From: an uncultured bacterium
Lineage (GTDB): Bacteria > Patescibacteriota > Minisyncoccia > Phycocordibacterales > CAIZLB01
Direction of reading: 5' to 3'
Assembly: GCA_903933735.1 (NCBI GenBank)
Contig: CAIZLB010000011.1
Location: 1-40,284, forward strand
Length of the DNA: 40,284 bases
Shown: positions 2,801 through 35,545 of the stretch, one piece after another
How positions within the stretch are numbered: the stretch's first letter is position 1
Layout: each line of letters opens with the position of its first letter
Notes under the pieces: model-generated
What the model was told of the DNA's origin: nothing
Database searches by the model: none
Seen by the model: the letters and a program-made list of their open reading frames with translations, nothing else
Made by a program: the position numbers and the translations under genes

Positions 2801-3367
2801 ATGGTAAGTATGAATGAAAACTACGAAATACCACAAGTACACTCTTTGGATCAGGTTGATAGTCATAGTAAATCTCAAGATAATGGCGAAAAAGCATTCG
2901 AAATACGAAAAGATTTTGCAGAAAAATACCCACTTTTATCAGAACGATTAGACTCTGAAGAAAAATGGGGTATCTTTCAAGCTGCTCTAGGGAGTAGAAA
3001 TGTTGAAGAAGATATTTTAGCAGAAGTGTATAATGATGTCATAAAAAGTCACTACGTAGAAGGTATACAAACAATTGTTTTTTATGGGTGGGATAGAGAT
3101 AAAAATGCTATTGATTTATATGGATGGGGATCAAAACCTGGTACTTTTAAGGCTATACGCACACTCGTTCATCATAGTGAAGAGGCGGTCAAACTTAACC
3201 GTACCGTTTTTCCTGATTACACCCTATCAATGAAATTTAATGACGGAACAGGGACACCTAGTGCAAAAAAGCTTTTTATAAGCTGGGAAACCCGAGAAGA
3301 TGTAAAAAAATGGTTAGAGACATTCAGAATGGGACATCTGCTTGAGCCATTTTTTGATGCAAAATAG
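2801..3367 (+). CDS. Hypothetical protein
   Basis: 188-aa ORF with no competing ORF; start may be the ATG at 2810. Confidence 0.7.
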   Translation: MVSMNENYEIPQVHSLDQVDSHSKSQDNGEKAFEIRKDFAEKYPLLSERLDSEEKWGIFQAALGSRNVEEDILAEVYNDVIKSHYVEGIQTIVFYGWDRDKNAIDLYGWGSKPGTFKAIRTLVHHSEEAVKLNRTVFPDYTLSMKFNDGTGTPSAKKLFISWETREDVKKWLETFRMGHLLEPFFDAK

Positions 3368-10773: not shown

Positions 10774-11097
10774 ATGAAAATTCTGACCCTTCTACTCTTA
10801 GTATTTATCAGCAATGTCGCCTACGGTAGCCTGACAAGATATGACCAATTTCAAGGTAAATTCACTCAAAAATCTGATGGTAAGGAGGTAATCATCCCTG
10901 AGCCTGAAGAGCGCATGGCCGAGATGGATACCATAAGACCAAAGCCGGGTACATACATCCTAGACAACCCTGATGTTATCGATAAAAGGATTGAGAGTCA
11001 GGGGAAAAAAGTAGTGAGTCGTACGTCATTGATGTTATATAAAGCATGTACTGTCATACTGGTCCTAAGTCTACTATTTGGACCCAAACGAAAGTAG
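10774..11097 (+). CDS. Small signal-peptide/TM protein, PGTYIL family
   Basis: Signal peptide, 'PKPGTYILDNPDVIDKRIESQG', C-terminal TM; homologous to the 35149 gene. Confidence 0.75.
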   Translation: MKILTLLLLVFISNVAYGSLTRYDQFQGKFTQKSDGKEVIIPEPEERMAEMDTIRPKPGTYILDNPDVIDKRIESQGKKVVSRTSLMLYKACTVILVLSLLFGPKRK

Positions 11098-29098: not shown

Positions 29099-29225
29099 AT
29101 ATGTATATATTGTATTGTAAATTATAGTTATTCGCAATTCGTCGAATAGTATATATTATAATGACACAGATGTATGATGAGTGCAAGGTTAAGCATAGTA
29201 GCCCAACACCAAGAACAATCAAAAA

Positions 29226-29912
29226 ATGCAAAAATACAACAGTGCCTTACGTGATAAAAATGCAGACGAACTTATCGCTCGTATTAAAGAGCAGACGAAT
29301 ATCGAGAGCTTATATGATTTGATACAACAAGATATCTATATTGGACACAAGGTTCATGAATGCGGAGCAGTATTTATGGATAGACTGGTCGAGCTAGCCG
29401 ACACTGAAGAAAAAGTCCTCATTGCAGTACTGACACTCCAAGGATCTTGGACTAAGAGATATTTTTGTCATTACATGAGTCGTAGTTCACAAAGAGTATT
29501 CTGGCACATTGCCCCATACTTTAAAAAATTAGGTGTACTTGATGAGGATGAGAAACCAGATTATGTTACCGAACATACACACAAATCACCGTCTCAAGAA
29601 AAATTAACAGAGGTGATTGATCAGATAAGAAAAAGATATTGTAGATTTATCAACACTTTCGATGGTAAGAAGATGAATACATTGATAAGGTTGGTAGATA
29701 AACTAGATTCATATCATGTTTGCAGGCTGATTTTTACAGAATCGAGAAGAGATGGATCAGGTGACGCTCTACTCAAAAAGATGTGTGAGTATGCGGTGAG
29801 TGTAGATGAATTATTTTACTGCATCAATGCCATATTTTCCAATAAAACAAGAAGAGGAAAATTCAAGAAAGAGTTGAGGGGACTACTTGGAAAATTCCGA
29901 AAGGTGGCCTAA
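29226..29912 (+). CDS. Hypothetical protein
   Basis: 228 aa, upstream TATAAT, strong terminator downstream. Confidence 0.75.
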   Translation: MQKYNSALRDKNADELIARIKEQTNIESLYDLIQQDIYIGHKVHECGAVFMDRLVELADTEEKVLIAVLTLQGSWTKRYFCHYMSRSSQRVFWHIAPYFKKLGVLDEDEKPDYVTEHTHKSPSQEKLTEVIDQIRKRYCRFINTFDGKKMNTLIRLVDKLDSYHVCRLIFTESRRDGSGDALLKKMCEYAVSVDELFYCINAIFSNKTRRGKFKKELRGLLGKFRKVA

Positions 29913-29919
29913 AACACCA

Positions 29920-29957
29920 CACCCCCCAAGGGCCACGCGCGTCCTTGGGGGATTTTT
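29920..29957 (+). terminator. Rho-independent terminator
   Basis: CCCCCAAGG-gccacgcgcgt-CCTTGGGGG-ATTTTT. Confidence 0.85.
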
Positions 29958-35104: not shown

Positions 35105-35148
35105 GAGGTGAAGCATAGTGCCTAACCAAGAACCAAACCATCCAAATC
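35105..35148 (+). promoter_or_regulatory. Conserved 5' leader motif (second copy at 29186-29225)
   Basis: AGGTGAAGCATAGTGCCTAACCAAGAACCAA vs AGGTTAAGCATAGTAGCCCAACACCAAGAACAA. Confidence 0.7.
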
Positions 35149-35493
35149 ATGAAAAACATCGTTATTAGTACCCTCATCGGATTACTCACCATTACCGCCT
35201 CAATTGCAGCGACGAGAGAATATGAGAGTTTTGCCATACCCTTCAAGCAGAGCAAGGATGCCGAGAGGGTTCTTATCGAGATACCCTCATTACCTGTAGA
35301 TTACAAATATGGCATGCTATTCCCAGAACCTGGCACCTATATCCTCAACAAGCCTGAGGTGCTGAAGAGGGAGATTGAGAGAACCGGAACTTACTATGTC
35401 TATCCAAAATTTTTCGTCATCACAACATTTATAGCTGTAGTTATTTTAGTGATAGTCTTTGCATTCTCTACCATAGGGTTCAAAAAAAACTAA
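35149..35493 (+). CDS. Small signal-peptide/TM protein, PGTYIL family
   Basis: Signal peptide, 'PEPGTYILNKPEVLKREIERTG', C-terminal TM; homologous to the 10774 gene. Confidence 0.75.
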   Translation: MKNIVISTLIGLLTITASIAATREYESFAIPFKQSKDAERVLIEIPSLPVDYKYGMLFPEPGTYILNKPEVLKREIERTGTYYVYPKFFVITTFIAVVILVIVFAFSTIGFKKN

Positions 35494-35513: not shown

Positions 35514-35545
35514 CCCGAGCCTAACCGGCTCGGGTATTTTTTATT
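35514..35545 (+). terminator. Rho-independent terminator
   Basis: CCGAGCC-taacc-GGCTCGGG then ATTTTTTATTTT. Confidence 0.8.

Follow-up and report, generated by a model that had tools for sequence, protein, structure and literature searches.

In Escherichia coli, the ompA leader carries a stem-loop close to its 5' end that stabilises the mRNA, followed by a single-stranded stretch on which ribosomes are loaded. Loss of CCUCC, the anti-Shine-Dalgarno (anti-SD) sequence, from 16S rRNA has been reported for Campbellbacteria, Wolfebacteria and SR1, which belong to an SD-scarce class; the accessible text of that report connects organisms without CCUCC to leaderless mRNAs too (PMC10783764). In Flavobacterium johnsoniae and other Bacteroidota, translation starts are Kozak-like and the SD is not used, and the available part of the source describes initiation as tuned by mRNA structure and by the bases near the start codon (PMC6847099). 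Leaderless mRNAs are known from mycobacteria (PMC4633059). How initiation proceeds on leadered messages in the absence of an anti-SD is an open question, and the lineages concerned are abundant and mostly uncultured.

Here we describe two similar leaders from such a lineage, located in a 40,284-nt stretch of DNA that was analysed as a whole (the window). Like the ompA leader, they have a predicted stem-loop near the putative 5' end and then a presumably single-stranded loading stretch; unlike it, their stems are weak and they have no SD. The organism resembles the SD-scarce class in that the CCUCC tail is missing, SDs are not clearly enriched and the genome is of a candidate-phyla type. The anti-SD loss seen here is thus already known in kind, since the same has been reported for Campbellbacteria, Wolfebacteria and SR1, but that report, as far as its accessible text goes, classifies rRNA tails and describes no C/A-rich stem-loop leaders of orphan genes (PMC10783764). 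With Flavobacterium the genome shares the lack of SD use (PMC6847099). However, the anti-SD is mostly kept in Bacteroidota and is absent here; moreover, the leaders described here have a longer element, a C/A tract with a predicted stem-loop farther 5'. Leaderless mRNAs, as in mycobacteria, are apparently made from most genes of this genome, judging from promoter position, whereas for the two genes of interest leaders at least about 40 nt long are predicted (PMC4633059). By analogy, the nearest known logic would be that of Flavobacterium, where initiation does without an SD and is tuned by structure and context, to the extent that the accessible text describes it (PMC6847099).

Two similar leaders in front of unrelated genes

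The two genes, their candidate promoters and their terminators are as follows.

29226..29912, + strand: orphan gene for a protein of 228 aa without a match in Pfam or NCBIfam
29157-29162, + strand: alternative -10 TATAAT of gene 29226, predicted 5' end about 29169 (sequence inspection)
29173..29178, + strand: candidate -10 TATGAT of gene 29226, predicted 5' end about 29185 (sequence inspection)
29923..29951, + strand: intrinsic terminator of gene 29226
35149..35493, + strand: orphan gene, 114 aa, with an apparent signal peptide and a C-terminal membrane segment
35066..35094, + strand: candidate promoter TTGACA-17-TATTGT of gene 35149, predicted 5' end about 35101
35514..35534, + strand: intrinsic terminator of gene 35149

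The initial annotation took the encoded proteins to be unrelated, and they are. The 228-aa protein has one weak match (E 0.0045) to an uncharacterised PHROG and no homologue in phages. Among 397 genomes of the order it has a single marginal match (E 8e-5, 22% identity, within a 706-aa frame), which is probably spurious. The 114-aa protein has a paralogue (31% identity) encoded at 10774-11097; the leader of that gene is a different one, without the shared block described below. Apart from this paralogue, which is of the same genome, no relatives of either protein were found in 15 genomes of the family, and no homologues in GTDB contigs or viral contigs. A divergent gene for a TrmB-family regulator adjoins gene 29226. 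Between the two lies a near-perfect inverted repeat, TATTCGCAATTCGTCGAATA, at 29129-29148, which is likely to be an operator.

The features of the leaders themselves are these.

29186..29216, + strand: shared leader block of gene 29226, AGGTTAAGCATAGTAGCCCAACACCAAGAAC (from sequence and alignment)
29187..29203, + strand: weak predicted stem-loop GGTTA-agcatag-TAGCC (folding; z about -1, not significantly below shuffled)
29204..29225, + strand: C/A-rich, G-poor tract 5' of the ATG of gene 29226 (sequence, composition screen)
35106..35133, + strand: shared leader block of gene 35149, AGGTGAAGCATAGTGCCTAACCAAGAAC (from sequence and alignment)
35107..35127, + strand: weak predicted stem-loop GGT-gaa-GCA-tag-TGC-cta-ACC (folding; z about -0.5 alone)
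35122..35148, + strand: C/A-rich, G-poor tract 5' of the ATG of gene 35149 (sequence, composition screen)

The near-identity of the leaders, originally placed at 29186 and 35105, was confirmed at the level of sequence, except that the second begins at 35106. They can be aligned over about 30 nt (AGGTTAAGCATAGTAGCCCAACACCAAGAAC for gene 29226; AGGTGAAGCATAGT-GCCTA--ACCAAGAAC for gene 35149), with 13 of 14 bases identical in the 5' block and CC-AA-CCAAGAAC thereafter. ACCAAGAAC is common to both, and each leader has a C/A tract and AGAAC. The two lie 5.9 kb apart, and the distance from block start to ATG is 40 nt in gene 29226 and 43 nt in gene 35149. If TATGAT is the -10 of gene 29226, the similarity begins near the predicted transcription start in both genes; if it is TATAAT, the similarity begins about 17 nt downstream of the predicted start. 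Neither gene has a -10 at leaderless distance, apart from a poor match at gene 29226, and the candidate promoters lie further upstream.

The stem-loops predicted 5' of the C/A tract are weak in both leaders, and their stems are not clearly stabler than those of shuffled sequence. The AUAGU of the shared block is positioned where a hairpin loop would fall, and the stem bases are near-identical in the only two copies. An Rfam search of both leaders, at gathering and at relaxed thresholds, gave no family match. The earlier remark that no SD is obvious also holds: none is present within 4-12 nt of either start codon, and the SD-like GAGGTGA at 35105-35111 is 37 nt upstream of the ATG, with no pairing partner in the 16S rRNA.

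Significance and distribution of the match

By plain match scoring, the leader pair does not stand out among upstream pairs of the window, because AT-rich pairs reach equal scores. With composition-aware scoring it ranks first among 1176 such pairs, and its score was attained in 0 of 300 shuffled sets of the window. The comparison was also made for 409 intergenic upstream regions, taken from about 700 kb of the 822-kb genome (83,436 pairs). Here 28 pairs reach the score of the leader pair, against 0.075 pairs per set in shuffles, where a few of 40 sets held one. We therefore treat the match as real, bearing in mind that the pair was picked after looking.

The sequence of the block does not recur. 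The exact 14-mer is found twice in the genome, both times in these leaders, and a looser 22-base pattern finds the same two sites only. Within the window, the 14-base pattern with three mismatches allowed has no more matches than expected by chance, and only two are exact. A one-mismatch search of 98 relatives produced no match recognised as a comparable leader; most of the matches fell within coding sequence, 23S rRNA or another palindrome, which is symmetrical. In a viral collection the two-part motif had 14 matches, about the estimated chance number, most of them within ORFs and none a clear leader. Since there is no other genomic copy and no leader recognised as comparable in the 98 relatives, the block is not a widespread sequence motif, and the proposal that a common motif recurs in additional copies is not supported. 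The resemblance to 23S rRNA (AAGCATAGTACCGAAAC) was judged a coincidence, the stretch being conserved rRNA. The palindrome AGGTGAACYATRGTTCACCT matches half of the block but was set aside as a distinct symmetrical site. It occurs near gene starts in several relatives (L006, L011, L024, L025, L026) and is likely to be a binding site for some regulator.

Translation start signals of the genome

In 160 cases, compared with about 29 expected, a distance of 6-9 nt separates the end of a -10 hexamer from the ATG, and therefore many or most genes are apparently leaderless. This suggests a genome dominated by leaderless starts, insofar as promoter position is a guide. SD tetramers are at most weakly enriched at the usual distance (17, versus 10 at a control distance). 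The 3' tail of the organism's own 16S rRNA (L166, G000:C19) reads GGATTTATTCAAG (GGATTTATTCAAGTG) and has no CCTCC. Among the 16S 3' tails read from relatives of the order (L156-L185), none has the anti-SD CCUCC. The absence of an anti-SD explains the lack of an SD at both genes.

A class of C/A-rich leaders

C/A-rich leaders were defined by composition (5 or more C, no more than 2 G and no more than 5 T in the last 25 nt) and by having no -10 at leaderless distance. In this genome 35 leaders qualify, as opposed to 3 of the G/T mirror composition, and the ratios in three relatives are 6:0, 8:1 and 12:0. Both genes of the pair have the composition of the class, which amounts to 36 of the 409 intergenic gene starts when gene 29226, held out only by its poor -10-like match, is included. 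The 3' half of the leader pair (ACCAA-AGAAC; A/C-rich and G-poor) is a hallmark of this larger class: ACCAACC is found in 8 leaders versus 1.0 expected, and AGAAC in 11 versus 3.6 expected, the latter an observation made post hoc on the same data.

Just 5' of the C/A tract, the predicted folds are more stable than those of shuffled sequence, with a mean z of -1.36 against -0.5 for leaderless genes and -0.42 for other genes; in one relative (G006), C/A leaders are without extra structure (z -0.09). In many leaders of the class, a small stem-loop lies close to the predicted 5' end; its loop frequently contains AGU, and in members other than the two studied here the stem can be strong. AGU is present in 7 of 18 class hairpin loops versus 4 of 105 (p 1e-4), a test suggested by the same data. 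Likewise post hoc, a hairpin with AGU and a C/A tail occurs near gene starts in 11 of 61 cases, compared with 6 of 274 for four control trinucleotides (p 2e-5). Secretion is not a property of the class, N-terminal hydrophobic segments being found in 8 of 36 proteins versus 51 of 176, with no enrichment. An excess of orphans among the class genes was considered and rejected, being borderline only (matches in relative G001 for 5 of 36 versus 56 of 176, p 0.04) and gone after length matching (26 of 105, p 0.24).

Origin and function of the leaders

The anatomy of these genes is plain: the layout of the leader, the absence of an SD and of a 16S anti-SD, and the leaderless majority elsewhere by promoter position. 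We consider it probable that both stretches are 5' leaders (about 40-57 nt) of single-gene transcripts and that the class comprises SD-independent leaders. After the promoter there would often be a small stem-loop, located at the 5' end or close to it; an AGAAC/ACCAAC-type element would follow, and lastly the C/A tract leading into the ATG. The C/A-rich, G-poor tract is expected to be unstructured and single-stranded. The stem-loop may shield the 5' end of the mRNA against decay, and the 30S subunit may land on the unstructured C/A tract and locate the AUG with no need for base pairing. Of the roles originally proposed, a post-transcriptional signal or translation enhancer is the best supported, because the 3' half and the layout are seen ahead of about 36 genes and the genome has neither SD nor anti-SD; the support is partial, the recurrence of the layout being observed and the function inferred. 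Nothing specific speaks for two further proposals, an sRNA target and a mobile cassette.

The block specific to the pair, AGGTKAAGCATAGT, is most likely a product of local reuse, both leaders deriving from one local copy, because similar leaders here tend to lie near each other even before unrelated orphans. High-scoring leader pairs are on the same stretch in 14 of 54 cases, whereas 2.7% is expected, an excess of about ten times. Some of these are paralogues (L111), but others have no detectable protein similarity (L103, 2635 and 3335; L092, 58 and 7759). The window pair fits such reuse, and this clustering lends support to the shared ancestry that had been suggested for it.

Ancestry might also be the whole explanation, a promoter-leader segment having been copied locally and kept by chance, its function merely that of being a leader. 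The clustering on the same stretch and the neighbours that share leaders but not proteins would equally be expected then. However, the similarity stops short of the promoter upstream and of the coding regions, which would follow if it was the leader that was kept and not a random DNA segment, and the retained 3' half agrees with the elements of the class; we regard ancestry without further function as improbable. That two C/A-rich leaders resemble each other by coincidence is very improbable: the pair is unremarkable by plain scoring and a few of the 40 genome-wide shuffled sets hold one as good, but its first rank among the window pairs, its absence from all shuffled window sets and the low genome-wide expectation speak against it, as do a separation of only 6 kb and a nearly equal distance to the ATG.

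The block could instead be the site of a dedicated regulator (an RNA-binding protein, a small RNA or a DNA-binding repressor) that jointly controls just this pair of genes, perhaps along with a few that escaped detection. In favor of this, the 5' blocks are alike far beyond C/A leaders in general, the block forms an imperfect inverted repeat (GGTNAAGC-ATAGT-GCC..ACC), and the TrmB-family gene is adjacent to gene 29226. But there are two copies only in 822 kb, and a regulon-type shared site was not found again at gene starts of this genome or of the relatives. Moreover, the repeat is imperfect, the RNA fold is weak, and TATTCGCAATTCGTCGAATA at 29129-29148 is a better operator candidate for a TrmB-type regulator; we think a dedicated site unlikely. 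Finally, GAGGTGA-agcata-GTG (35105-35120) could open a leader peptide of 16 codons overlapping the main start, and by sequence inspection the frame from the GTG at 35118 does end about 16 nt inside gene 35149. This is hardly credible in an organism without an anti-SD, and the corresponding frame in the leader of gene 29226 starts with ATA/GTA, not a normal start codon.

The reading as SD-independent leaders can be extended, speculatively, to two start modes in candidate-phyla bacteria that lack the anti-SD: a leaderless majority, and accessory orphan genes that carry the 5' element and form a translational regulon. The AGU-loop stem-loop, AGAAC and the C/A tract would in that case be recognised by a specific protein or an altered ribosome. 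The recurring leader layout provides concrete sequences that can be tested, and could aid in recognising genuine start codons, as well as expression signals, in genomes of candidate phyla.

Other recurring sequences

Hammerhead-like ribozyme sequences (CTGATGA, stem II, GAAAC) were noted in the spacers between small orphan genes, at about 2555-2610, 3255-3310 and 3807-3861 of L103 (G000:C27) and about 455-510, 890-945 and 1490-1540 of L082 (G000:C6). One scores 38.1 bits to Rfam Hammerhead_3 (E 2.6e-6; curated cut-off 48.5). In the literature that could be searched, no paper pairs the hammerhead ribozyme with the candidate phyla radiation. The upstream sequence TTCTTTATGAAAACTTTAT..GTTTTGTTAGTATTT recurs directly before ATG and is perhaps a promoter class (L092, 12618 and 14952; L130, 430; L124, 9517; L103, 8476; L119, 2688; L104, 554). 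Positions 916-8931 of L092 (G000:C17) hold mostly orphans in the same orientation, and their spacers repeat CTTCGTCAAACTGCTCCGCG..TGGGAGGATGTTCGGAAT in a cassette-like manner.
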